From Thioalkalivibrio sp. K90mix (GTDB lineage Bacteria; Pseudomonadota; Gammaproteobacteria; Ectothiorhodospirales; Ectothiorhodospiraceae), in assembly GCF_000025545.1 (NCBI RefSeq), contig NC_013930.1, positions 1 to 64,000 of the forward strand: a stretch of 64,000 nucleotides of DNA, given 5' to 3'. The position numbers were made by a program, and so were the translations under genes. This document shows, piece by piece, positions 57 to 49,086 of this stretch. Numbering within the stretch: the stretch's first letter is position 1; the number at the start of each line of letters is the position of its first letter. Below the pieces are notes generated by a model that saw only the letters and a program-made list of their open reading frames with translations, did not search any database and was not told where the DNA came from.

Positions 57-473
57 ATGTCGAAAGAAAACATTCGAGCAGAGTTCTCGACCGACCGGGA
101 CGGTTGGGGTTGGCTTCAGGATCAGATGACCCGTGGGCGCCCTGGTCTTCACACGATGGCGGCCCTGGTGGGGGCGATGGTCGCGCTTGCTATCACAGCG
201 CTCGTGGAAGGCAGTGTGCGTTTCGAGCAGCTTGCGCTGGTGGGGGTCGGTTTAGTCTGCTACGTCCTGCTGAGTCTCGTGGCAGCGCTGGGTCGTCAGG
301 CCGATGGTGTTGTCGAGCATGGTGGATGTGCGGCGACGGCCTTGCCGGTTTTCGTGAGCGCCTGCGTGATCGGTCTTGGGTTGACGCAGGTGGTTGCGGG
401 CATGGTTGTAGCGTCCGCCCTGGTGCCGATGGTGGCGCTGATGATGGTGGCGGATCGCTTCTGCTCGAAGTAG
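57..473 (+). CDS. small multi-pass membrane protein, unknown function
   Basis: I do not recognise the family. The 138-residue product has a charged N-terminus of about 35 residues followed by three or four hydrophobic stretches (near residues 35-57, 63-82 and 94-132) that look like membrane helices. The ATG at 57 is chosen over the in-frame ATG at 36 because a strong AAGGAGG lies 8-9 bases before it. The gene is followed by a promoter-like motif and then the SSB-like gene, so it probably ends a separate transcription unit. Confidence 0.65.
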   Translation: MSKENIRAEFSTDRDGWGWLQDQMTRGRPGLHTMAALVGAMVALAITALVEGSVRFEQLALVGVGLVCYVLLSLVAALGRQADGVVEHGGCAATALPVFVSACVIGLGLTQVVAGMVVASALVPMVALMMVADRFCSK

Positions 474-490
474 CGGTTTGCGACCTGGGA

Positions 491-528
491 AACGACCTTT
501 GCGGGTGTCAGTCTCGCGCGCGTAGGAT
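491..528 (+). promoter_or_regulatory. AACGACCTTTG motif with TAGGAT, candidate promoter
   Basis: AACGACCTTTGC at 491-502 is followed 32 bases after its first base by TAGGAT (523-528). The same motif with the same 32-base offset to TACGAT lies at 41006-41043, and close variants (AACGACCTTTGACA) occur at 8095 and 24507. It precedes the SSB-like gene and its hairpin-rich leader (about 570-650). Confidence 0.4.
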
Positions 529-663
529 GGAAGCTGATAGAAGCCCGACGCTGGGGTAACAAGCGACCGGGCCTTTCGGCCTTTTCCCACCGGGGAGATT
601 CATCATTCCCCGAGTGGGAAGGATGCGTCTCCCCTTCTCAACCAGAGATAGGAGACGTTTTCC

Positions 664-1422
664 ATGATGACGACAGACAGTAACTTCACGTTGCTGGGGG
701 AGCTCGGGGTTCACCCCGAACCCCTGAATATCCGGAGCGGTACCGCAGTGCGGTTGTCCATCGCTCAGGATAAGCCGGGAGGTGACCGTGGCTGGATCAA
801 GGTCATCGCTTTCGGCAAGGCGGCTGAGGCTGCGCTCTCGTACGCCAGGAAAGGTGCTCTTGTCTCTGTGAAGGGACACATGGAGCCCAAGCGTATCGAG
901 GTTCATGGCACCACCCTTACGACCGTTACCCTGATTGGGGAGCACATTCGCGTCGTACGGGCGGCTGTCGATCCTGATGACGGCGTTATCCAGGGCTTGG
1001 AGGATTCCGGGTCTGAAGGCAACACGGAGCCCACCCCAGAAACGAAGCCCAAACCGGATCCGGTTGCGGTGGCGCAGCAAGCGCCCCCGGTGACCGGTGT
1101 CGGGATGAGCTTCAATTTTGGTCAGGGTTCTGACTCAGGTTTTGCGTCAAGCTCACCGCGCCGGGAACGGCGTTCACCACCCTCCCCTGAGCCCTCAACC
1201 TCTGTAGAGCGCAAAGAGCCGGTCTACCGCACGTCGGAGGAATCGCGTTCACCGCGGTTTCAGCCACGCGTGGTTACGGCTGAGGAGCGTATGCAGGAAC
1301 TCGAGCGTTCAGGAGAAACCACCCATGAGCCGCAAGAGCGGTCGAAACCTTCCCTGGGAAAGCCCCCCCGTCCGGCCCCTGCCAAGCAGCAGGAGCCGCC
1401 GCTGGGTTTTCGGTGGGAATAG
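664..1422 (+). CDS. SSB-like single-stranded DNA-binding protein
   Basis: Residues 1-100 resemble an OB-fold single-stranded DNA-binding protein: a short N-terminal strand, a segment with W-I-K-V-I-A-F-G-K resembling the SSB W/F-V-A-F strand, a K-G strand (VSVKGHMEPKRIE) and a closing strand. Residues 105-252 are Pro-, Ser-, Glu- and Arg-rich and probably disordered. The usual acidic DDDIPF tip is absent; the protein ends in GFRWE, so partner binding through a standard SSB tail is doubtful. An AGGAG lies about 10 bases before the ATG. Hairpins at about 570-640 form the leader. An SSB role in plasmid replication or transfer is inferred. Confidence 0.6.
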   Translation: MMTTDSNFTLLGELGVHPEPLNIRSGTAVRLSIAQDKPGGDRGWIKVIAFGKAAEAALSYARKGALVSVKGHMEPKRIEVHGTTLTTVTLIGEHIRVVRAAVDPDDGVIQGLEDSGSEGNTEPTPETKPKPDPVAVAQQAPPVTGVGMSFNFGQGSDSGFASSSPRRERRSPPSPEPSTSVERKEPVYRTSEESRSPRFQPRVVTAEERMQELERSGETTHEPQERSKPSLGKPPRPAPAKQQEPPLGFRWE

Positions 1423-1511
1423 CGCATTCCGCGCTTCTTTAGCCCCTCCTCGGGTTTTGTGCTTATTCAGCGGTCCCGGTGGAGCGGGGTCGCATGTTCA
1501 GGAGAAACACC

Positions 1512-1982
1512 ATGCGAAAGATGAAGCTCGTGATTGTTGTTCTGGCATCCCTGGTGATGGTCGGTTGTGCGAATACGCCGATCGGCAGCGGGGACTACTC
1601 CGTCAATCAGGCCCGGACTCCGGGTACCGTTGTGAACGGAACCGTGACTGATATCCGTAGTGTTCGGGTCCAGGAGGACTCGCGTGCGGGTCAGCGTGGA
1701 ACCATTGGCGCCATTGCCGGTGCTGCGGCGGGAGCTGCGGTAGGCAACCAGGTAAGCGATGGTGCGACGCGACGGATCGCGCAGACCGCGGCAGCAGCGG
1801 CGGGATCGGCGATTGGCTCTCGAGCTGATCAGCGGATGGCGCAGCAGCAAGGATTGGAGCTCCAGGTAGAGCTTGAAGACGGTCGCCAGGTGGTTGTCAC
1901 CCAGGGCGTCGACCAATCCTTCGGTGTAGGTCAGCCGGTCCGGTTGATTCGTCACGGAAACACCTACCGGGTCACCCAGTAG
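1512..1982 (+). CDS. glycine-zipper outer-membrane lipoprotein (SlyB/Pcp-like)
   Basis: The 156-residue product begins with a lipoprotein signal: a basic start, a hydrophobic core and the lipobox L-V-M-V-G-C at about residues 14-19. Residues 65-105 contain two Gly/Ala-rich helices (GAIAGAAAGAAVGNQV and a second copy) typical of the glycine zipper 2TM family, followed by a small basic beta-rich C-terminus. By family it should sit in the outer membrane or periplasm. The ATG at 1512 follows CAGGAGAAACACC, a ribosome-binding context reused by many genes here; upstream in-frame starts lack it. Confidence 0.8.
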   Translation: MRKMKLVIVVLASLVMVGCANTPIGSGDYSVNQARTPGTVVNGTVTDIRSVRVQEDSRAGQRGTIGAIAGAAAGAAVGNQVSDGATRRIAQTAAAAAGSAIGSRADQRMAQQQGLELQVELEDGRQVVVTQGVDQSFGVGQPVRLIRHGNTYRVTQ

Positions 1983-2129: not shown

Positions 2130-4537
2130 ATGTCGGAAGTAATCTCGGGCGATGTTGCCCGTAACACCCAGGACGTTCCCTACCAGGCGGCCTCGCTGGG
2201 TATCTGGGATAGCAAGTACCACCTCAAGGATATGAATGGGGCGCCGGTTGACGGTGACCTCGATGGCATGTTCAGCCGGGTGGCCGCAGACCTCGCCTCC
2301 GAGGAACCGGAAGAAGTTCGCGAGAAGCACGAAGCGGACTTCCGTTGGGCCTTGGAGAATGGGGCGATCCCTGCGGGGCGTATCCTGTCCAACGCAGGGG
2401 CGCAGGCCTTCAAGCCCGCGACCACCCTGATCAACTGCACGGTATCCCGAACGGTTCGGGATTCGATGCGGGATATCCTGGAAGCCACCGTGGCGGCCGG
2501 GATGACCCTGAAGTCTGGAGCCGGTATCGGTTACGACTTCAGCACCCTCCGTCCGAAGGGGGCCACCGTATCCGGCGCTGGTGCCGAAACGAGTGGTCCG
2601 CTCACTTTCATGGACATCTTCGATGCCACATGCGCCACCGTGTCCTCCGCTGGAGGGCGTCGCGGGGCGCAGATGGGCACCTTCGATATCGGGCACCCGG
2701 ACGTGGAGCAATTCATTGCTGCGAAGCGCGCCAAGGGGCGCCTGACCAAGTTCAACCTGTCTCTGCTCATTCGCGACGAGTTCGTGGAAGCCGTCAAGGC
2801 TGACGCGGACTGGAAGCTGGCCTTCCCCTTGCTCCCCAGCGAGTCGGAGGAAGACCACGAGATCATCTACCGCGACTGGCCGGTGATCGAGGATGGGTAC
2901 ACGTTGGACGATGACGGCCGAGTGGCATGCCGTGTGTATCGCACGGTGCGTGCTCGGGAGCTGTGGGACAAGGTCATGCAGTCGACCTTTGACCACGCGG
3001 AGCCGGGGTTCATTCTCGTGGATCGTATCAACGAGATGAACAACAACTGGTTCTGCGAGACCATCAGGGCCACCAACCCGTAAGTAACCATGCGGCCTGC
3101 TGCGGTGACGCAGCATGGAAACACCCGATCTGATCGACTTGGAAATCCCGGCGGGGATGACAGGGGGCAAGCAGGGAGCGATCCCGTGCAGCCTGAACGA
3201 CTGAGTGATTGGGCTCTCCTGGGAGCAGGAGATGGAGCGACAGTCTGGACTCCCGGATAACGCCGTTCGATGTTCGCGTCGAACCCAGAAACGGGAGAGG
3301 GAGCGCCGAAGCGCCTCCCCGCCCTGCCTTCGGGCCGGGTCAGTAGCCGGGTAGCCGGTGAAAGTAACAGTGCGGTGGTGAACAGCCCTTACCTCCGGAT
3401 GGCGCCTGCCTGTTGGGCAGCGTCAATCTGACGCGGTTTGTGAAGGACCCCTTTACGGAGAAGGCCGAGTTCGACTGGGCCCGGTTCAAGAAGGTGGTGC
3501 GGATCTTCACGCGGATGCTGGACAACGTCGTGGATCGCTCGGGCTTGCCTCTTGAGGCGCAGCGCGAGGAGATCATGCGCAAGCGTCGTCACGGCATGGG
3601 GTTTCTCGGTCTCGGATCGACGATGGCAATGATGGGGCTTCCCTACGGGGAAGCGGGCTCTCTGGCCTTTACGGAAGAGGTGGCCCAGGTGATGGCAGTC
3701 GAGTCCTGGAAGATGGGTCTGGAGCTGTCGAAGGAAAAGGGACCGGCTCCGGTCCTGGACGAGGACTTCGAGATCACGCCGAAGATGATGCGGCAGCGTC
3801 CGGAGATGGCTCGCGACGGGTATTCCGTAGGCGATGTCATCAAGGGTCGTGTTCTGCATGCCCGGTACAGCCGGTACATGCAGCGCATCGCTGAGGTGGA
3901 GCCGAAGTTGGTGGAGGAGTTGGCCGAGCATGGCGCCCGGTTTACGCACGCCACCTCGATCGCCCCCACCGGGACGATTTCCCTGTCCATCGGGAACAAT
4001 GCCAGCAATGGCATTGAACCCTCCTTCATGCATCACTACACCCGGAACGTCATCGTGCCCGGCAAGCAGTCGAAGGAGTCCCAGGACGTCTATTCGTTCG
4101 AGCTGTTGGCCTATCGGTACTTCGTCAACCCGGAAGCGGGTCCGGAGGAACTGCCGGCCACGGCGCGAAGCGCGAATGACGTCTCGGTATCCGAGCATGT
4201 GCAGGTCCAGGCGGCGGCGCAAAAGTGGGTGGATTCGTCCATCTCCAAGACCGTCAACGTTCCCACTGAGATCGACTTCGGTGATTTCGAGAACGTGTAC
4301 CTGGAGGCGTTTGAGAGTGGCCTGAAAGGTTGTACCACCTACCGGTACAACCCGAAGTCCGCGATGGGCGTCCTCATGGACCCGAAGCAGCTCGAGAAGG
4401 AAACCTTCACGTTCGTTCAGGACAACGGCGAGGAGGTCACGCTGCGTGGCAACGAAAAGGTTTGGCACAACGGCCAGGAACACACGGCCGCCAACCTGTT
4501 CGCCGCGATTGAGGAGGGGTACTACGGAATGCTGTAG
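2130..4537 (+). CDS. nrdJ: class II (B12-dependent) ribonucleotide reductase large part NrdJa, interrupted by a group I intron
   Basis: This is a join of 2130-3081 and 3375-4537 encoding about 704 residues. NrdJ reduces ribonucleotides with adenosylcobalamin. Visible motifs: INCTVS (Cys103, redox partner), GAGIGYDF, and, across the splice junction, N-P-C-G-E-Q (Asn316, Cys318, Glu320) with L-P-P-D-G-A-C-L-L-G-S-V-N-L. Removing 3082-3374 restores the catalytic N-x-C-x-E in frame; the codon of the thiyl-radical Cys318 is split T|GT. Without splicing, translation stops at 3083. The usual Cys-rich tail is missing here and is supplied by the next gene, as in the split NrdJa/NrdJb of Pseudomonas. 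The ATG at 2130 has AAGGAG upstream and follows a CCTCC/GGAGG hairpin (about 2100-2116). No B12-riboswitch boxes were seen. Confidence 0.93.
3082..3374 (+). ncRNA. group I self-splicing intron in nrdJ (293 nt, no ORF)
   Basis: The boundaries come from restoring the conserved NPCGEQ codons. The 5' exon ends in CCGT (3078-3081), which pairs with GCGG at 3092-3095 to give P1 with the required U.G at the splice site. The last intron base is G3374. The 3' exon GTGGT (3375-3379) pairs with ACCAT at 3087-3091, directly beside the guide, as P10. A P7-like pairing joins GACTG (3199-3203) to CAGTC (3241-3245), and the hairpin between them, CTCCTG (3216-3221) with CAGGAG (3226-3231), fits P8. No homing endonuclease is encoded. 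The full fold and subgroup were not computed. Confidence 0.88.
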
Positions 4538-4610: not shown

Positions 4611-5333
4611 ATGGACATGAAGGAAATCAAGAAGCCCATTATCGCCGTCCATCGCGGCGGCGGGCCCCAGGCCCCGGCGGAAAACAAGCCGGCGGACATT
4701 GACCCCCTGGAGCGGCGCATTTCGTCGCGGCCGGAAGGGGAGTTACCGGCAGTTTCACAGAAGATCTGCTACTACACCCAAGACGGCAAACAGACGGTCT
4801 ACCTGCTGGTCAGCTTCATGCCGGTCGAGGGTATGGTGGATGGCGAGAAGGTCGTGATTGAACGGCCGATCGAGTTCTTCCTGCCGACCGGGCAGCAGTC
4901 CGATTCGTACCAGTGGATCTCCGCGACCATGCGGAGCCTTTCCCTAGCCGCCCGCGGTGGCTATGCCGCACAGGCGCTAATGGACCTGCGTCAGGTGACG
5001 TGGGACAAGGGGCCAGTGCGGTGCGGATTGAATGAATACCGCAAGCCGGTGTATCACAACTCCGAAGCCGCCGCGATTGCCTATTCCATCCAGATGATCC
5101 TCTATCGTCGAGGGTTCCTGGACCTGGATGGCAACCAGCTCCCCTTGTGGGATTTGGTGGAGGCCTATCAGGGTCAAATCTCGCCGGTCCGTCCGGCGGC
5201 GGTCCAGACCCCGCCTCCGGGTGAAGAATCGGGCGTTCCGCAGCAGGGCGATTGTCCCCAGTGCGGCGGTGCCACCCAGATGATGGATGGCTGTCCGACC
5301 TGCCTCGACTGCGGGTATTCGAAGTGCTTATAA
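4611..5333 (+). CDS. nrdJb: class II ribonucleotide reductase accessory part NrdJb (TSCPD-type with Cys-rich tail)
   Basis: The 240-residue protein matches the C-terminal portion that single-chain NrdJ proteins carry after the barrel. Residues 55-175 resemble the TSCPD-like domain (I-E-F-F-L-P, W-I-S-A-T-M-R, A-A-I-A-Y-S-I-Q). The last 25 residues hold C-P-Q-C-G...C-P-T-C-L-D-C-G-Y-S-K-C, the zinc/thiol tail that re-reduces the active site. It starts 73 bp after nrdJa behind AGGAGAG and is followed by a terminator, so the two parts are probably made together and act as a complex. Confidence 0.85.
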   Translation: MDMKEIKKPIIAVHRGGGPQAPAENKPADIDPLERRISSRPEGELPAVSQKICYYTQDGKQTVYLLVSFMPVEGMVDGEKVVIERPIEFFLPTGQQSDSYQWISATMRSLSLAARGGYAAQALMDLRQVTWDKGPVRCGLNEYRKPVYHNSEAAAIAYSIQMILYRRGFLDLDGNQLPLWDLVEAYQGQISPVRPAAVQTPPPGEESGVPQQGDCPQCGGATQMMDGCPTCLDCGYSKCL

Positions 5334-5360: not shown

Positions 5361-5391
5361 CCCCGCGTTCATTTCGGACGCGGGGTTTTTG
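5361..5391 (+). terminator. intrinsic terminator after nrdJb
   Basis: CCCCGCGTTC and GACGCGGGG form a stem of eight to nine pairs around ATTTCG, followed by TTTTT, 28 bases after the nrdJb stop codon. Confidence 0.85.
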
Positions 5392-5407
5392 AGCACCCTT
5401 CGGGGTG

Positions 5408-5594
5408 CATTCCCGGGCGAATAAGGGTTCGTCGGGGAATGCACCCGGATCCATCCAGATCCAGGGGCCCTGCCCCGCTCCACCGTCTTTAAGCCAGCAC
5501 CCTCACCCGGTGTTGGATAAGGCGCGCATCGGGCATTCCCGAGCGTGATACACCCACCCTCCCCTTGAGCGGGAGGTTTTTCAGGAGAAACACC
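5408..5594 (+). ncRNA. structured leader RNA motif, copy 1
   Basis: First of four copies of a leader directly upstream of a gene start. The core (5483-5556) contains CCGTCTT, stem 1 CCAGCACC/GGTGTTGG around CTCACC, a second stem ending in GAGCGTG, and the conserved ACACCCA. A hairpin and CAGGAGAAACACC then lead into the ATG at 5595. Upstream, GGTGCATTCCC and GGGGAATGCACC (about 5403-5452) form a long stem that has a covarying counterpart in copy 2. Function unknown; a cis-regulatory RNA is inferred. Confidence 0.6.
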
Positions 5595-5837
5595 ATGACG
5601 GAACGAGAGTCGAAGCTGGTCTATTACGCAATGGCTCCGCGTGCCTACGCAGGGACCATCAGCGTGATCGAGGACGGCGACTTCCGCAGTTACTGGGTAC
5701 CCAAGCTGCGCGGGAAGATCGTCTGCCTGGACCGTAATCGTTTTAAGTTCGACCAGAAGCAAGCGGCGCTTGAAGAAGCCCGAGCATTTCGGGAGAGCTG
5801 TCGACAGGAAGCCCGTGAAGCGGGACTGATCCACTGA
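5595..5837 (+). CDS. hypothetical 80-residue protein under structured leader copy 1
   Basis: Family not recognised. The product is soluble and mixed in charge, with a beta-rich first half (YYAMAPRAYAGTISVIEDG) and a helical, Lys/Glu-rich C-terminal third. The ATG at 5595 has CAGGAGAAACACC before it and is the first start after the repeated leader RNA. A similar ribosome-binding context precedes the next gene 38 bp downstream, so the genes from here to about 7845 probably form one operon. Confidence 0.7.
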   Translation: MTERESKLVYYAMAPRAYAGTISVIEDGDFRSYWVPKLRGKIVCLDRNRFKFDQKQAALEEARAFRESCRQEAREAGLIH

Positions 5838-7589: not shown

Positions 7590-7616
7590 GGGCACCCTTC
7601 GGGGTGCCTTTTTCTT
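7590..7616 (+). terminator. terminator-like hairpin inside a leader (possible attenuator)
   Basis: GGGCACCC TTC GGGGTGCC is followed by TTTTTC, and only a few bases later by the GAGGAG ribosome binding site of the gene at 7630. The hairpin is short of loop but could reduce transcription into the next gene. Confidence 0.55.
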
Positions 7617-7629
7617 GAGGAGAACCACT

Positions 7630-7845
7630 ATGTCATTTGCGAGCGATATGCTAGAGGCCCATGTCTGGGCGCTCGACGAGGGCTTTGTCCTCACCTACAC
7701 CTGTTCCTGCGGCCATGAATACTGGACCGCCTGGGACGGCGAGGTGGATGAGGATTGCCCCTCGTGCGGAACGACCAACGCCCCGACCGATGCCTGGTCG
7801 GCGGAGGACATTCGGGACGCAATGAAGGAGATAGCCATCACCTGA
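7630..7845 (+). CDS. small zinc-ribbon protein
   Basis: The 71-residue product has a C-S-C-G...C-P-S-C-G arrangement (about residues 24-50) typical of a rubredoxin-like zinc ribbon, flanked by acidic helices. It probably binds one zinc ion; partner unknown. The start is set by GAGGAGAACCACT just after the terminator-like hairpin. Confidence 0.75.
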   Translation: MSFASDMLEAHVWALDEGFVLTYTCSCGHEYWTAWDGEVDEDCPSCGTTNAPTDAWSAEDIRDAMKEIAIT

Positions 7846-24583: not shown

Positions 24584-27500
24584 ATGCATCAGAAGGCCCA
24601 ATCCCCCCAGCTGCTGAAAAAACCGCTCGCGTTGGCGATCGGCGTGGTGCTGGCGAGCGCCTACCTCACCTCTGTATCGGCCGGGGAATCCGGTATCCGG
24701 GTGGTGCTACCCGACACCAGCGACAAGGTGGATACCGCCGGAATGACCCCGACCCCGGGGGATCCGGAGGTCTGGAACTCCTACGCCCACTCCGAAGGCT
24801 TTTCGACGGTCGGCGACTACGCCACGGATGATGTGGCTTTCAATAGTGAATCGGCCACCTGCCTGCCGATGGGTCCGGGCTGCGAAGACTTCAATGACTA
24901 CTTCCCCGAGCCGAACCCCGCGGGTGACCTGCGGTTCAACAGCAACGACCTGGTGAGTACGACCGGGCTGGAGACCATCGAGACGGTGGGGGGTGAACTG
25001 AACCTCAGTTTTAATGATCTGACCGACGTGGATGGGCTTTCGGGGCTGCGTGAAGTGGGCGGGACACTGAACCTGCGGGGCAACGACCTGACCGACCTGC
25101 GGGGACTGGGCAGCCTGCACACGGTGGGCGGTGCGGTCTTCCTGGACCGAAACGACCTCCAGACGCTGGACGGTCTGGAGAACCTGGAGGAGACGGGCAG
25201 CATTTACCTGTACGGGAACGACCTGACGGATATCTCGGCCCTGAGCGGGCTCCGTCGCGCGGGTGGCATCTTCCATCTGTACGACAACCCCCGCCTGGCT
25301 GACCTGTCGCCGCTGTCGAACATCGAAGACGATGTGGCCTTCCAGGGCTCATTCGGCGGTCAGGTCCGCATCGACGCCGGCATCCATGAGCGCGCGGGCT
25401 TCGTGCCGATCCAGGGCGGCGCCCTGTGCCAGGACCACAACGCCGATGCGTTCAACGATAGCTACGCCCAGCAGGCCGAGGTGTGCGCGGATGATACGAT
25501 GGAGGCCTCGGCCACCTGGAACTCCTACGCCCACTCCGAAGGCTTTTCGACGGTCGGCGACTACGCCACGAATGATGTGGCTTTCAATAGTGAATCGGCC
25601 ACCTGCCTGCCGATGGGTCCGGGCTGCGAAGACTTCAATGACCACTTCCCCGAGCCGAACCCCGCGGGTGACCTGCTGTTCAACAGCAACGACCTGGTGA
25701 GCACGGCCGGGTTGGAGACCATCGAGACGGTGGGGGGTGAACTGAACCTCAGTTTTAATGATCTGACCGACGTGGATGGGCTTTCGGGGCTGCGTGAAGT
25801 GGGCGGGACACTGAACCTGCGGGGCAACGACCTGACCGACCTGCGGGGACTGGGCAGCCTGCACACGGTGGGCGGTGCGGTCTTCCTGGACCGAAACGAC
25901 CTCCAGACGCTGGACGGTCTGGAGAACCTGGAGGAGACGGGCAGCATTTACCTGTACGGGAACGACCTGACGGATATCTCGGCCCTGAGCGGGCTCCGTC
26001 GCGCGGGTGGCATCTTCCATCTGTACGACAACCCCCGCCTGGCTGACCTGTCGCCGCTGTCGAACATCGAAGACGATGTGGCCTTCCAGGGCTCATTCGG
26101 CGGTCAGGTCCGCATCGACGCCGGCATCCATGAGCGCGCGGGCTTCGTGCCGATCCAGGGCGGCGCCCTGTGCCAGGACCACAACGCCGATGCGTTCAAC
26201 GATAGCTACGCCCAGCAGGCCGAGGTGTGCGCGGATGATACGATGGAGGCCTCGGCCACCTGGAACTCCTACGCCCACTCCGAAGGCTTTTCGACGGTCG
26301 GCGACTACGCCACGAATGATGTGGCTTTCAATAGTGAATCGGCCACCTGCCTGCCGATGGGTCCGGGCTGCGAAGACTTCAATGACCACTTCCCCGAGCC
26401 GAACCCCGCGGGTGACCTGCTGTTCAACAGCAACGACCTGGTGAGCACGGCCGGGTTGGAGACCATCGAGACGGTGGGGGGTGAACTGAACCTCAGTTTT
26501 AATGATCTGACCGACGTGGATGGGCTTTCGGGGCTGCGTGAAGTGGGCGGGACACTGAACCTGCGGGGCAACGACCTGACCGACCTGCGGGGACTGGGCA
26601 GCCTGCACACGGTGGGCGGTGCGGTCTTCCTGGACCGAAACGACCTCCAGACGCTGGACGGTCTGGAGAACCTGGAGGAGACGGGCAGCATTTACCTGTA
26701 CGGGAACGACCTGACGGATATCTCGGCCCTGAGCGGGCTCCGTCGCGCGGGTGGCATCTTCCATCTGTACGACAACCCCCGCCTGGCTGACCTGTCGCCG
26801 CTGTCGAACATCGAAGACGATGTGGCCTTCCAGGGCTCATTCGGCGGTCAGGTCCGCATCGACGCCGGCATCCATGAGCGCGCGGGCTTCGTGCCGATCC
26901 AGGGCGGCGCCCTGTGCCAGGACCACAACGCCGATGCGTTCAACGATAGCTACGCCCAGCAGGCCGAGGTGTGCGCGGATGATACGATGGAGGCCTCGGC
27001 CACCTGGAACTCCTACGCCCACTCCGAAGGCTTTTCGACGGTCGGCGACTACGCCACGAATGATGTGGCTTTCAATAGTGAATCGGCCACCTGCCTGCCG
27101 ATGGGTCCGGGCTGCGAAGACTTCAATGACCACTTCCCCGAGCCGAACCCCGCGGGTGACCTGCTGTTCAACAGCAACGACCTGGTGAGCACGGCCGGGT
27201 TGGAGACCATCGAGACGGTGGGGGGTGAACTGAACCTCAGTTTTAATGATCTGACCGACGTGGATGGGCTTTCGGGGCTGCGTGAAGTGGGCGGGACACT
27301 GAACCTGCGGGGCAACGACCTGACCGACCTGCGGGGACTGGGCAGCCTGCACACGGTGGGCGGTGCGGTCTTCCTGGACCGAAACGACCTCCAGACGCTG
27401 GACGGCCTGGAGAACCTGGAGGCGACGGGCAGAATTTACCTGTACGGGAACGACCTGACGGATATTTCGGCCCTGAGCGGGCTGCGTCGCACTGGCAACC

Positions 27501-28480
27501 GCTTCCATCTGTACGACAACCCCCGCCTGGCCGATCTGTCGCCGCTGTCGAACATCGAAGACGATGTGGTCTTCCAGAGCTCATTCGGCGGTCGGGTCCG
27601 CATCGACGCCGGAATCCATGAGCGCGCGGGCTTCGTGCCGATCCAGGGCGGCGCCCTGTGCCAGGACCACAACGCCGATGCGTTCAACGATAGCTACGCC
27701 CAGCAGGCCGAGGTGTGCGCGGATGATACGATGGAGGCCTCGGCCACCTGGAACTCCTACGCCCACTCCGAAGGCTTTTCGACGGTCGGCGACTACGCCA
27801 CGAATGATGTGGCTTTCAATAGTGAATCGGCCACCTGCCTGCCGATGGGTCCGGGCTGCGAAGACTTCAATGACCACTTCCCCGAGCCGAACCCCGCGGG
27901 TGACCTGCTGTTCAACAGCAACGACCTGGTGAGCACGGCCGGGTTGGAGACCATCGAGACGGTGGGGGGTGAACTGAACCTCAGTTTTAATGATCTGACC
28001 GACGTGGATGGGCTTTCGGGGCTGCGTGAAGTGGGCGGGACACTGAACCTGCGGGGCAACGACCTGACCGACCTGCGGGGACTGGGCAGCCTGCACACGG
28101 TGGGCGGTGCGGTCTTCCTGGACCGAAACGACCTCCAGACGCTGGACGGCCTGGAGAACCTGGAGGCGACGGGCAGAATTTACCTGTACGGGAACGACCT
28201 GACGGATATTTCGGCCCTGAGCGGGCTGCGTCGCACTGGCAACCGCTTCCATCTGTACGACAACCCCCGCCTGGCCGATCTGTCGCCGCTGTCGAACATC
28301 GAAGACGATGTGGTCTTCCAGAGCTCATTCGGCGGTCGGGTCCGCATCGACGCCGGAATCCATGAGCGCGCGGGCTTCGTGCCGATCCAGGGCGGCGCCC
28401 TGTGCCAGGACCACAACGCCGATGCGTTCAACGATGACTACGCCCAGCAGGCCGAGGTATGCGAGAGCGTTGAGGGGTAG
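24584..28480 (+). CDS. 1298-residue secreted protein with five 248-residue leucine-rich repeat blocks
   Basis: A signal peptide (residues 1-38, ending S-V-S-A-G-E) precedes the shared motif I-R-V-V-L-P-D-T. The rest is five tandem blocks of 248 residues. Each has a Cys pair (C-L-P-M-G-P-G-C), six leucine-rich repeats of about 20 residues (L-N-L-S-F-N-D-L, L-N-L-R-G-N-D-L, V-F-L-D-R-N-D-L, I-Y-L-Y-G-N-D-L types) resembling receptor-L/LRR surface domains, and a second Cys pair (A-L-C-Q-D-H...E-V-C). It is probably exported and exposed; ligand unknown. AAGGAG precedes the ATG. Confidence 0.85.
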   Translation: MHQKAQSPQLLKKPLALAIGVVLASAYLTSVSAGESGIRVVLPDTSDKVDTAGMTPTPGDPEVWNSYAHSEGFSTVGDYATDDVAFNSESATCLPMGPGCEDFNDYFPEPNPAGDLRFNSNDLVSTTGLETIETVGGELNLSFNDLTDVDGLSGLREVGGTLNLRGNDLTDLRGLGSLHTVGGAVFLDRNDLQTLDGLENLEETGSIYLYGNDLTDISALSGLRRAGGIFHLYDNPRLADLSPLSNIEDDVAFQGSFGGQVRIDAGIHERAGFVPIQGGALCQDHNADAFNDSYAQQAEVCADDTMEASATWNSYAHSEGFSTVGDYATNDVAFNSESATCLPMGPGCEDFNDHFPEPNPAGDLLFNSNDLVSTAGLETIETVGGELNLSFNDLTDVDGLSGLREVGGTLNLRGNDLTDLRGLGSLHTVGGAVFLDRNDLQTLDGLENLEETGSIYLYGNDLTDISALSGLRRAGGIFHLYDNPRLADLSPLSNIEDDVAFQGSFGGQVRIDAGIHERAGFVPIQGGALCQDHNADAFNDSYAQQAEVCADDTMEASATWNSYAHSEGFSTVGDYATNDVAFNSESATCLPMGPGCEDFNDHFPEPNPAGDLLFNSNDLVSTAGLETIETVGGELNLSFNDLTDVDGLSGLREVGGTLNLRGNDLTDLRGLGSLHTVGGAVFLDRNDLQTLDGLENLEETGSIYLYGNDLTDISALSGLRRAGGIFHLYDNPRLADLSPLSNIEDDVAFQGSFGGQVRIDAGIHERAGFVPIQGGALCQDHNADAFNDSYAQQAEVCADDTMEASATWNSYAHSEGFSTVGDYATNDVAFNSESATCLPMGPGCEDFNDHFPEPNPAGDLLFNSNDLVSTAGLETIETVGGELNLSFNDLTDVDGLSGLREVGGTLNLRGNDLTDLRGLGSLHTVGGAVFLDRNDLQTLDGLENLEATGRIYLYGNDLTDISALSGLRRTGNRFHLYDNPRLADLSPLSNIEDDVVFQSSFGGRVRIDAGIHERAGFVPIQGGALCQDHNADAFNDSYAQQAEVCADDTMEASATWNSYAHSEGFSTVGDYATNDVAFNSESATCLPMGPGCEDFNDHFPEPNPAGDLLFNSNDLVSTAGLETIETVGGELNLSFNDLTDVDGLSGLREVGGTLNLRGNDLTDLRGLGSLHTVGGAVFLDRNDLQTLDGLENLEATGRIYLYGNDLTDISALSGLRRTGNRFHLYDNPRLADLSPLSNIEDDVVFQSSFGGRVRIDAGIHERAGFVPIQGGALCQDHNADAFNDDYAQQAEVCESVEG
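24773..28480 (+). repeat. five 744-bp tandem repeats inside the LRR gene
   Basis: Units start at about 24773, 25517, 26261, 27005 and 27749. Units 2 and 3 look identical; units 4 and 5 share variants in their second half (for example A-T-G-R-I for E-T-G-S-I). The pattern implies recent unequal exchange. Confidence 0.9.
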
Positions 28481-43374: not shown

Positions 43375-43549
43375 GGTGCATACCCGAATCCATGGCGCGT
43401 GGGTTCCGGTATGCACCGCTGGATCGTGACGCCACGATCCGCTCCCGTCTTCATGCAGGCACCCTCACCCGGTGCCGAAGAAGCACGCTCGGAACCTCGG
43501 GCGTGAAACACCCAACACCGCCATCGGCGGTTCTTTCAGGAGAAGCACC
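43375..43549 (+). ncRNA. structured leader RNA motif, copy 2
   Basis: Upstream stem GGTGCATACCCG/CCGGTATGCACC (43375-43417) matches the stem before copy 1 with paired changes. The core (43444-43514) has GGCACC-CTCACC-CGGTGCC, then GAAGAAG and the stem CACGCTCG/CTCGGGCGTG type with GAACCT loop, then AAACACCCA. A final CCGCCATCGGCGG hairpin leads to CAGGAGAAGCACC and the ATG at 43550. Confidence 0.65.
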
Positions 43550-44179
43550 ATGCACTACACGAAAGGCCCTTATGGGGTCCTGCTCGATGTGGATATGCCC
43601 CCGAATACGTGGGACTCCCGCATTCATCGATCACTCGATGCGATACCCACTCTCGCTTTTGTTCATCGGCCCACCTTGGTCACGCGAGAAGAAGTGTCGA
43701 AAGGGCAGATTCTCCACGCGGCCAAGAATCCGCTCGACGTCGAAAAGATCACGCCGATTGTCGACGGGGACGAAGACTTCGACGGGCTTATCTGGCTCGT
43801 GGATCCGGAACAGGCGCATCAATTGGAACGGATCCGGTCGCTGCTGCACTACGGGCAGATCAGCCGGTTCCCCGATCAGGATGCCTGGATGGTATCGCCC
43901 GCGGTGGATCCGTCCGGAGTGACGGGGCCGATCCGGGCTCCAACGCCCAGCCATGTGATGGACGCCCTCGAGTACATGAAGGAAAACTTCAGCAATCTGG
44001 AGCCTCAGTCGGGGCAGGATCAGCGTCTGTGGCGTCTCGTTCGCGCGTTTGCCATCGAGGCCTCCGTGTTCCATTCAGACACCCAGGACGCCTCGGAATC
44101 CACTGAAACGGTGGTGCCGATGGAGGCCCAGTGGATCGAACGCGATCGTCAGGCGTGTCCTTCGCGGGCACTGTTTTAG
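43550..44179 (+). CDS. hypothetical 209-residue protein under structured leader copy 2, ending SRALF
   Basis: Family not recognised. Soluble, mixed alpha/beta, Asp/Pro-rich. It ends C-P-S-R-A-L-F, similar to the products ending at 39350 and 44899. The start is fixed by CAGGAGAAGCACC. Confidence 0.7.
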   Translation: MHYTKGPYGVLLDVDMPPNTWDSRIHRSLDAIPTLAFVHRPTLVTREEVSKGQILHAAKNPLDVEKITPIVDGDEDFDGLIWLVDPEQAHQLERIRSLLHYGQISRFPDQDAWMVSPAVDPSGVTGPIRAPTPSHVMDALEYMKENFSNLEPQSGQDQRLWRLVRAFAIEASVFHSDTQDASESTETVVPMEAQWIERDRQACPSRALF

Positions 44180-44227
44180 TACCCACACCGGGGCAACCCC
44201 TGCCCCGTTCTTTTCAGGAGAACCACC

Positions 44228-45023: not shown

Positions 45024-45129
45024 CCCGTCTTCATGCAGGCACCCTCACCCGGTGCCGAAGAAGCACGCTTGGAACCTCGGGCGTGAAACACCCACCACCG
45101 CCACCGGCGGTTCTTACAGGAGATACACC
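45024..45129 (+). ncRNA. structured leader RNA motif, copy 3
   Basis: Core nearly identical to copy 2 (CCGTCTTCATGCAGGCACC onward). The second stem reads CACGCTTG/TCGGGCGTG; the changed base keeps pairing as G.T. The final hairpin is CCGCCACCGGCGG, then CAGGAGATACACC and ATG 45130. Confidence 0.65.
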
Positions 45130-46497
45130 ATGAAAAAGCTGATGAAGTCTGATTCAGTGGATATCGACCTCAATGAGGTCGAAGGCCTGGAGTTGTGCGA
45201 CCCGGATTGTGGCCCGATGGGTTATGACGGGCCTGTGATTCGCCGGTTGTCGGAAAACCGGATCGCAGTCGGTCAACTCGTCCGGGACGATGATCCCGCG
45301 ATCTTCCAAATGTTGGAAGACGACAATATGGCGAACGTCGTCATTGCAGAAAACGCATCGACCGCCGAACTGGAAAGATTGCACGCAGCACTGGGGACCA
45401 CCGTCCACAACGGCGTGCTCGATGAACCTGTGTTCTCCGAGATGCTGGATCAAACCAACCGCCACGGACGGGCCTTGCTCGAGTCCTGGGTTCAGGACCT
45501 AGCAAAACGCACGCTGGACCCCGTGTTTCTTCAGGACGAAGACCAGGTGCAACGTCTCAAGGCAGTGGATCAGGATATGTTGCTGTCCCAGGAGATGAAT
45601 GACCCGGACCTGCGGGACTGGGCCATTCGGAACGCCCCGTCGAGCGTGACGATATCCGATGGATGGATCCGGTCGCGCATTCGGCGGGGTATTCGCAACC
45701 GGGATGAAAGCCTGGCGGATCTGGACTGTGTGAAGCGTCACTGCAACACCGCCGATCTTGCGAAAGAGCAGGCGAAAACCCTGCTCAACGACGCCCCTGA
45801 AGACCTCGATGAAGTCAACGTGGTCGAAGGCGCGGTGGATCAGTGGTGGGCGGATCTCGTGACGGAAGGCGGATTCGGTGACAAGTATGCCGTTCCGTTT
45901 AAACATGCGTACCACTCCTCGGCCGGTCCGATATCGCTGTCGGTCACCGGAACGTGGCCCGATTTCGGGGAACGGTTGGGGGGTGTCTGCCTGCTGGAAT
46001 CCGACCAGGTAGAGATGTGCCGCAAAGACGCGGACCTGTACGCCTTCACACGGTTTCGTCACGACAGGACCTGGGGTACGGCCGACGTCGAGCTCGACCC
46101 GGCGTTTGCCGAGGCCCTGGGCGTCGGCCGCTATATCCAGTTCAGTGATCTGAGAAAGGCTGAATCCACGATCCGCGAGTGGATGGATCAGGCCTGGAGG
46201 TCCGGTTCGGGCGCCTTCTGCGTCCTGCCCTCCGCGCGTGAACGCGGTTTTATCGAGGCCGCTGAAACCCTCGCCTCGATCATCGTTGATGAAATCGAGG
46301 ATGCGATGAACGGCAATGTGTTCGTCAGCATCATCGATATCCTCGAGTACGACCCGGTCGAAGGTGTCTGGCATGTCCTGGAGGATCAACAGCACACCTG
46401 TGGCGGATTCATCGGAGATGCCTGGGCCCGCGACGGGCTTGCGGACATGCTCCCCCGTGCGCAGGAAGAACCGGAACCCGCCGCACTGGCGGCGTAA
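45130..46497 (+). CDS. hypothetical 455-residue acidic protein under structured leader copy 3
   Basis: Family not recognised. One of the largest unknown proteins here: acidic, soluble, apparently multidomain, with a helical middle (residues 100-230) and an alpha/beta C-terminal half. It has no P-loop, Cys cluster or membrane segment that I can see. Confidence 0.75.
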   Translation: MKKLMKSDSVDIDLNEVEGLELCDPDCGPMGYDGPVIRRLSENRIAVGQLVRDDDPAIFQMLEDDNMANVVIAENASTAELERLHAALGTTVHNGVLDEPVFSEMLDQTNRHGRALLESWVQDLAKRTLDPVFLQDEDQVQRLKAVDQDMLLSQEMNDPDLRDWAIRNAPSSVTISDGWIRSRIRRGIRNRDESLADLDCVKRHCNTADLAKEQAKTLLNDAPEDLDEVNVVEGAVDQWWADLVTEGGFGDKYAVPFKHAYHSSAGPISLSVTGTWPDFGERLGGVCLLESDQVEMCRKDADLYAFTRFRHDRTWGTADVELDPAFAEALGVGRYIQFSDLRKAESTIREWMDQAWRSGSGAFCVLPSARERGFIEAAETLASIIVDEIEDAMNGNVFVSIIDILEYDPVEGVWHVLEDQQHTCGGFIGDAWARDGLADMLPRAQEEPEPAALAA

Positions 46498-48410: not shown

Positions 48411-48513
48411 ACCGTCTTCATGCAGGCATCCTCACCCGGTGCCGAAGAAGCGCGTTCGGAACCTCGAACGTGACACACCCAACGCTCCGACAGGAGCCCT
48501 TTAGGAGAGCACC
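48411..48513 (+). ncRNA. structured leader RNA motif, copy 4
   Basis: Core CCGTCTTCATGCAGGCATCC onward. The first stem is GGCATC/GGTGCC. The second stem reads CGCGTTCG/CGAACGTG: compared with copy 2, C-G became T-A and T.G became T-A, keeping pairing. Then ACACACCCA, a CTCCGACAGGAG stem and AGGAGAGCACC before ATG 48514. Confidence 0.65.
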
Positions 48514-49086
48514 ATGGAACCATCCATACCTTTGATTGGTATCAGCGGACCGGCTCGTTCCGGGAAAGACGCCACAGCGTCGATCCTGGTGGCGCGCGGG
48601 TTCGAACGGATCGCCTTTGCCGACCCCGTGAAGGCGGCGGTCGGGGCCCTTTTCCCGGACGTCGATCATTACGAGGACAAGGAACGGGTGATCCCGGAGA
48701 TTGGCAAAAGCTCGCGCGAGTTGCAGCAAACGCTCGGGACGGAATGGGGACGCCACATGGTTCATCCGAACCTGTGGCTGATCCTGGCCGATCGAGCGAT
48801 CGAAGCGGCCTTTGCCGCAGGAAAGCCCGGTGTGGTGATCTCGGACGTTCGTTTCGACAACGAAGCCGAGTTCGTTCGCAACCGGGGCGGCCTGGTCGTG
48901 CGTCTTCATCGTGAAGACCGCGAGCAAATCCGTTCTCATGCGTCCGAGGCGGGCATTGAGGATGCCCTCGTGGATGTGGAGCTGGACAACAACGCCGCTT
49001 CGTTGGAGGCCCTAGCGGCTGAGTTCGATCGGGTGGTGTGGCCGGTCCTGCGGGAACGCGATGCAACGCCTTCGTCGGTCGCCTAG
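48514..49086 (+). CDS. deoxynucleoside monophosphate kinase (phage-type)
   Basis: 190 residues: P-loop G-P-A-R-S-G-K-D-A-T-A (about 11-21), F-A-D-P-V-K, a central Q-Q-T-L-G-T-E-W-G-R and V-I-S-D-V-R-F-D-N-E-A-E, the arrangement of the phage dNMP kinase family. It would phosphorylate dNMPs to dNDPs, feeding DNA synthesis together with the ribonucleotide reductase. It has the fourth copy of the structured leader. Confidence 0.8.
   Translation: MEPSIPLIGISGPARSGKDATASILVARGFERIAFADPVKAAVGALFPDVDHYEDKERVIPEIGKSSRELQQTLGTEWGRHMVHPNLWLILADRAIEAAFAAGKPGVVISDVRFDNEAEFVRNRGGLVVRLHREDREQIRSHASEAGIEDALVDVELDNNAASLEALAAEFDRVVWPVLRERDATPSSVA

Follow-up and report, generated by a model that had tools for sequence, protein, structure and literature searches.

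A four-copy structured leader RNA on a Thioalkalivibrio plasmid with a possible role in terminator read-through

Introduction

The put RNA of HK022 is about 70 nt long and forms two stem-loops; putL and putR act as antiterminator RNA, suppressing termination by binding RNA polymerase (PMC9378689). A repeated element on a plasmid of Thioalkalivibrio sp. K90mix resembles putL/putR in layout, with a length of about 70 nt, two adjacent stem-loops and two or more copies per mobile element. The genome consists of two contigs (2.99 Mb), and the window, meaning the whole stretch of 64,000 nt that was analyzed, corresponds to positions 1-64000 of contig C2. This contig is a plasmid of 240,256 bp and a relative of the MOBH/MPF_F (IncC-like) plasmids. 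Taken as a whole, the best explanation of the repeat is, in our judgment, a cis-acting structured leader RNA that controls read-through of terminator-like hairpins, with a probability of roughly 0.4.

Anatomy and position of the four copies

An earlier note on this DNA had described a structured leader present in four copies, each before a different gene. This description was borne out: all four copies lie on the + strand upstream of four unrelated genes, and covariance-model and pattern searches of the whole 2.99-Mb genome revealed no fifth core. The cores span 70-74 nt, and all four are followed by a start codon 32-38 nt downstream.

5483-5556, + strand: copy 1 core (CCGTCTT, stem-loop 1, linker, stem-loop 2, ACACCCA)
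43445-43514, + strand: copy 2 core (stem 1, 43458-43463/43471-43476; stem 2, 43484-43492/43497-43505)
45025-45094, + strand: copy 3 core
48412-48481, + strand: copy 4 core

Stem 1 has six pairs and a CTCACCC loop, while stem 2, which directly abuts the linker, has nine pairs and a loop of AACC (copies 2-4) or CATT (copy 1). Copies 2-4 read CCGTCTTCATGCAGGCA(C/T)CCTCACCCGGTGCCGAAGAAGC..., next stem-loop 2 and next GTGANACACCCA, with copies 2 and 3 almost identical and copy 1 further diverged. The shared GAAGAAG and GAACCT loop reported earlier are present in copies 2-4 only, copy 1 having GGATAAGG in place of the former and CATT as its loop in place of the latter. ACACCCA, at the 3' end of the core, is followed in order by the small hairpin 3, AGGAG and the ATG.

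The genes that follow the leaders are:

5595..5837, + strand: gene after copy 1, 80 aa; plasmid pPRO1 has a homologue (45% identity) in this gene block
43550..44179, + strand: gene after copy 2, 209 aa, orphan
45130..46497, + strand: gene after copy 3, 455 aa, orphan
48514..49086, + strand: gene after copy 4, deoxynucleoside monophosphate kinase (PF21448/phrog_139)

No family was matched by the genes after copies 1-3, and protein searches with the orphan genes returned no relatives, the exception being the 80-aa gene in pPRO1, whose homologue there is without the leader. Copy 1 is located after a split ribonucleotide reductase (RNR), the large subunit of which is spread over consecutive frames at 2130-3083 (N-terminal part and first barrel half), 3575-4537 (second barrel half) and 4611-5333 (a C-terminal piece resembling a B12-dependent enzyme); about 490 nt separate the first two frames, where an intervening element is possible.

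Terminator-like hairpins and a proposed control of read-through

Besides hairpin 3 of each copy, we found similar hairpins around and within the gene runs that the leaders precede:

5361..5385, + strand: strong intrinsic-terminator-like hairpin closing the preceding RNR gene run
5558..5576, + strand: copy 1 hairpin 3, terminator-like, CCTCCC/GGGAGG then TTTTT, with the ATG 18 nt on
7590..7609, + strand: strong terminator-like hairpin within the copy 1 gene run, 20 nt 5' of the next ATG (7630)
43517..43531, + strand: copy 2 hairpin 3, ACCGCC/GGCGGT then TCTTTCAGGAG
44189..44207, + strand: terminator-like hairpin 5' of the second gene (44228) in the copy 2 run
45097..45111, + strand: copy 3 hairpin 3, ACCGCC/GGCGGT, with a tail that is not T-rich
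48484..48497, + strand: copy 4 hairpin 3, GCTCC/GGAGC

Hairpin 3 differs almost wholly in sequence among the copies with its fold retained, and ends 6-8 nt 5' of the Shine-Dalgarno (SD) sequence. A G+C-rich stem followed by a T run, as in intrinsic terminators, is found at copy 1, the only textbook case, and in borderline form at copy 2, but not at copies 3 and 4, which have poor T tracts. In addition to those at copies 1 and 2, terminator-like hairpins lie near the start codons of genes downstream of copies 1, 2 and 4. Across the plasmid, such a hairpin ends within 35 nt of the start codon in 9 of 46 gaps in the structured-leader blocks versus 2 of 189 gaps elsewhere (Fisher P = 9e-6, an optimistic value given that the blocks were partly picked by eye). 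The gap 5' of the gene at 7630 is only 46 nt long, leaving little room for a promoter past the terminator.

The common promoter of this plasmid, AATCGAC-N17-TANNNT, stands ahead of numerous genes in two regions, 8.7-40 kb and 68-145 kb. It has no strong + strand match in the 26.6 kb of structured-leader blocks, versus 14 in the adjoining 32 kb, and none was found close upstream of any of the four copies. The leaders are therefore probably part of long transcripts or stand behind another kind of promoter. Within the promoter-rich regions themselves (window 8700-40100 and C2 68-145 kb), several promoters are followed by ACGGA(A/T)ACCGGCCCG(A/G)AGCCGGCAGGAG, a hairpin directly 5' of the ribosome-binding site, and the genes with this promoter resemble an array of single-gene cassettes. 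The same part of the window encodes a 1298-aa leucine-rich-repeat protein (24584-28480), in which a 744-bp spacing of nested ORFs suggests near-identical tandem repeats. Some genes also occur twice, once close to each end of the circular contig (C2 236967-240145 and window 57-1982), the second copy holding an extra 1.25 kb or so.

With T-run hairpins directly before ribosome-binding sites and little promoter room after them, something must allow read-through, and we place control of this step first because a two-stem-loop RNA of about 70 nt ahead of such runs has the put layout. While being transcribed, the core would be recognized either by RNA polymerase itself, as in HK022 put, or by a bound protein. 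Recognition would alter read-through at the terminator-like hairpins ahead of a run's first gene and of genes further along it, which would couple expression of the gene runs to one signal. The sequence, position, uniqueness, preserved pairing and context of the core were observed here, and we infer its transcription, a factor acting in trans and the read-through step; on its own, control of read-through by the core is a tentative proposal that we hold to be rather doubtful. Searches for possible partners identified no NusG paralogue on the plasmid, the genome having the chromosomal one only, and no ProQ/FinO protein in the genome. If real, the leader would be an RNA element co-ordinating four plasmid genes.

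Folded leaders in related plasmids and access to the ribosome-binding site

At 225-231 kb, the plasmid carries a MoxR-type ATPase/DUF3150/CobT-like VWA/Toprim block, as found in IncC and other MOBH plasmids. We found that leaders in the same block are strongly folded in IncC plasmid pAR060302 (mean fold z -3.5, 91% below -2), a P. frederiksbergensis plasmid (-5.1), pPRO1 (-3.7) and a Rhodanobacter plasmid (-2.95), while a Citrobacter plasmid from another branch reaches only -0.97. On C2, leaders in the matching blocks are likewise folded: the leader fold z per 10-kb bin is -2.19 at 220-230 kb, -1.46 at 40-50 kb and -0.88 at 0-10 kb, with most other bins closer to zero and a value of -0.17 for 125 genes elsewhere. 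The four-copy leader seems to be a specialized form of such folded leaders, which stand before many genes in this plasmid family. In MOBH/MPF_F plasmids (pAR060302, L110 6119-24471; L109; L111; pPRO1, L121), strongly folded leaders precede the majority of genes in the ssb-exonuclease-MoxR-DUF3150-VWA block. In pPRO1 and IncC these leaders often contain an anti-SD segment, in some cases with an SD mimic on its 5' side, an arrangement that may form bistable switches. Attenuator-like layouts, in which the middle segment of a long hairpin could pair with one of two partners, 5' or 3', directly ahead of the ribosome-binding site, occur in other leaders at window 41684, 41977 and 42658 and at C2 226782, 227856 and 229779. 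Rfam gave no match in the IncC, Pseudomonas and Rhodanobacter stretches, and we found no published description of such folded leaders in the open literature.

It is possible, though we would not count on it, that MOBH/MPF_F conjugative plasmids, including the clinically common IncC, equip almost all genes of the ssb-exonuclease-MoxR-DUF3150-VWA core block with tailor-made structured leaders as an RNA-level control layer, working by ribosome-binding-site pairing in IncC and pPRO1 and by terminator-like hairpins in the C2 plasmid, with the four-copy leader as its shared-signal version. If real, the leader also points to a larger and apparently undescribed pattern in IncC-like plasmids, with folded leaders ahead of most genes in the core block; this pattern may outweigh the four copies in importance. 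Since IncC plasmids are well studied in E. coli laboratory strains, the wider claim could be tested immediately on available plasmids and RNA-seq data.

The ribosome-binding-site-pairing hairpins of the related plasmids probably control access to that site, and the main rival to read-through control extends this to the four copies: the core itself, or a protein that binds it, such as a CsrA-family protein of the plasmid, would govern access to the ribosome-binding site. Leader segments of the relatives exceed shuffled sequences in their pairing with the SD-to-start region (z 2.97 in pPRO1, 1.71 in IncC and 1.5 in the Pseudomonas plasmid), but on C2 the same comparison shows no enrichment (z 0.32 for the four leaders and 0.11 for the others). 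A model in which three segments switch to occlude the ribosome-binding site was lowered on this shuffle result. Within the copies, a CUCC immediately 5' of CCGTCTT is complementary to GGAG and, in copies 2-4, closes the predicted fold, and the copy 2 linker duplicates 8 nt of its own ribosome-binding site, AGAAGCAC; in the predicted fold of copy 1, however, the GGA of the SD stays open. The plasmid does encode a CsrA-family protein (C2 200075-200341, - strand; locus L036/L115), a candidate RNA-binding regulator of the leaders for which plasmid-encoded RsmQ offers a precedent (PMC9928087). A CsrA target leader would be expected to carry GGA in a hairpin loop of every copy; copies 2-4 have one at the stem 2 apex, and copy 1 does not. 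On balance, we regard translational control by the core as unlikely, if still the most serious competitor of read-through control.

Conservation of pairing in the core

The compensatory changes listed in the earlier note were confirmed for both stem 1 (GGCACC/GGTGCC, CAGCACC/GGTGTTG, GGCATC/GGTGCC) and stem 2 (CGCTCG/CGGGCG, CGCTTG/CGGGCG, CGTTCG/CGAACG), with all 15 pairs canonical in all four copies (60/60 pair cells). Eight of the 15 pairs vary. Two of these, G-C/A-U in stem 1 and C-G/U-A in stem 2, differ on both sides; the other six have one-sided changes, which give G-U pairs. In copies 1 and 4, 11 of 11 stem substitutions preserve pairing, and all 11 are transitions. When stem substitutions were placed at random with a 2:1 transition bias, the probability of keeping all pairs was 0.007 for copy 1 and 0.015 for copy 4, rising to 0.07 and 0.09 with transitions only. 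In a column-shuffle control, counted over the 11 pairs in register in a MAFFT alignment, 35 of 500 shuffles equaled the observed 100% pairing with two two-sided pairs, and slid registers were just 18-48% paired. The short lower stem CTT/AAG is invariant and therefore carries no covariation information. Core fold z-scores of the four copies are -4.1, -3.1, -2.2 and -1.5.

As all copies are paralogues from a single plasmid and no relative was found, covariation is weak; coming from only four related copies, it is supportive and not decisive. Structure is favored, although four paralogues cannot prove it. The earlier note would have taken a covariance search that yields only primary-sequence duplicates as refuting its reading; our search found no relatives beyond the four copies, so this outcome partly applies, although pairing is preserved among them. 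Based on preserved pairing, position and fold stability, the core is very probably an RNA structure selected as such, and a cis-acting structured leader, as proposed earlier, remains the best reading given the fixed orientation upstream of start codons, the kept pairing and the stable folding.

Near-identical copies 2 and 3, the restriction to four paralogues, the lack of relatives and the frequency of pre-gene hairpins on this plasmid would also fit a recently duplicated non-coding spacer, or generic mRNA-stabilizing hairpins, of no regulatory role. Against this, CCGTCTT, the CTCACCC loop and ACACCCA are unvaried across the copies while the flanks diverge, and the pairing-preserving substitutions in copies 1 and 4 point the same way, making such an origin improbable.

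The long upstream stem that the earlier note had seen at copies 1 and 2 is also real:

5400..5449, + strand: long imperfect hairpin 5' of copy 1, arms GGTGCATTCCC / GGGAATGCACC (22-nt arms, 86%)
43375..43417, + strand: long imperfect hairpin 5' of copy 2, arms GGTGCATACCC / GGTATGCACC (18-nt arms, 89%)

These two near-perfect inverted repeats have a GGTGCAT half-site in common, and no ordinary promoter was seen upstream of the copies, as might be expected if the repeats were operators or part of a promoter and any RNA structure were incidental. However, the shared core extends up to the ribosome-binding site, hairpin 3 retains its fold and not its sequence, and the one-sided changes in the core stems give G-U pairs, compatible with pairing in RNA but disruptive to a palindrome in DNA. 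We hold a DNA element to be a slightly less probable account than a duplicated spacer.

Search for relatives of the core

Covariance-model searches for the core covered 144 relatives as well as 47 genomes from the order and 369 from the class (overlapping sets that total somewhat under 560), and matched its own genome only. blastn against phages and plasmids gave no convincing relative, and pattern scans of viral contigs and, with the exact pattern only, of genome contigs from about 85,000 genome species produced only chance matches once model-scored. The CCGTCTT two-hairpin core was also not found in the IncC, Pseudomonas and Rhodanobacter plasmid stretches. We conclude that the core is a real, plasmid-restricted structured leader that is probably functional. 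Rfam 15 contains no family matching at the gathering threshold, and relaxing the limit to E values of 10 brought up chance-level matches only in the surroundings of the four copies. A riboswitch for a nucleotide or cofactor, suggested earlier along with a link to nucleotide metabolism, was rejected as very improbable: a dNMP kinase gene follows copy 4 and the split RNR precedes copy 1, but only one of the four genes is nucleotide-related, the other three belong to no family, no Rfam family appears even at permissive thresholds and the lack of cross-genome conservation would be unusual for an aptamer.

Comparison with known systems

One difference from HK022 put is placement, the core being 32-38 nt from the start codon with a hairpin in between. 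The boxA consensus is about CGCTCTTTA, and CCGTCTT(T/C)A of the core, which a stem-loop follows, resembles it; in a lambda-type nut site, boxA is followed by a boxB hairpin. The core sequence is, however, one base short of boxA and partly paired in the predicted fold. We know of no N-like protein for this plasmid, and the rrn boxA pattern of the host has a single match, outside any rRNA context. CsrA/RsmA-controlled leaders are comparable in that the plasmid encodes a protein of this family, and differ in that the hairpin loops of copy 1 are without GGA. Finally, the leaders of IncC, pPRO1 and the P. frederiksbergensis plasmid, while pairing with the ribosome-binding site beyond chance, unlike those of C2, share with them the plasmid family, the gene block, a fold directly 5' of the ribosome-binding site and a CCC-rich 5' flank.
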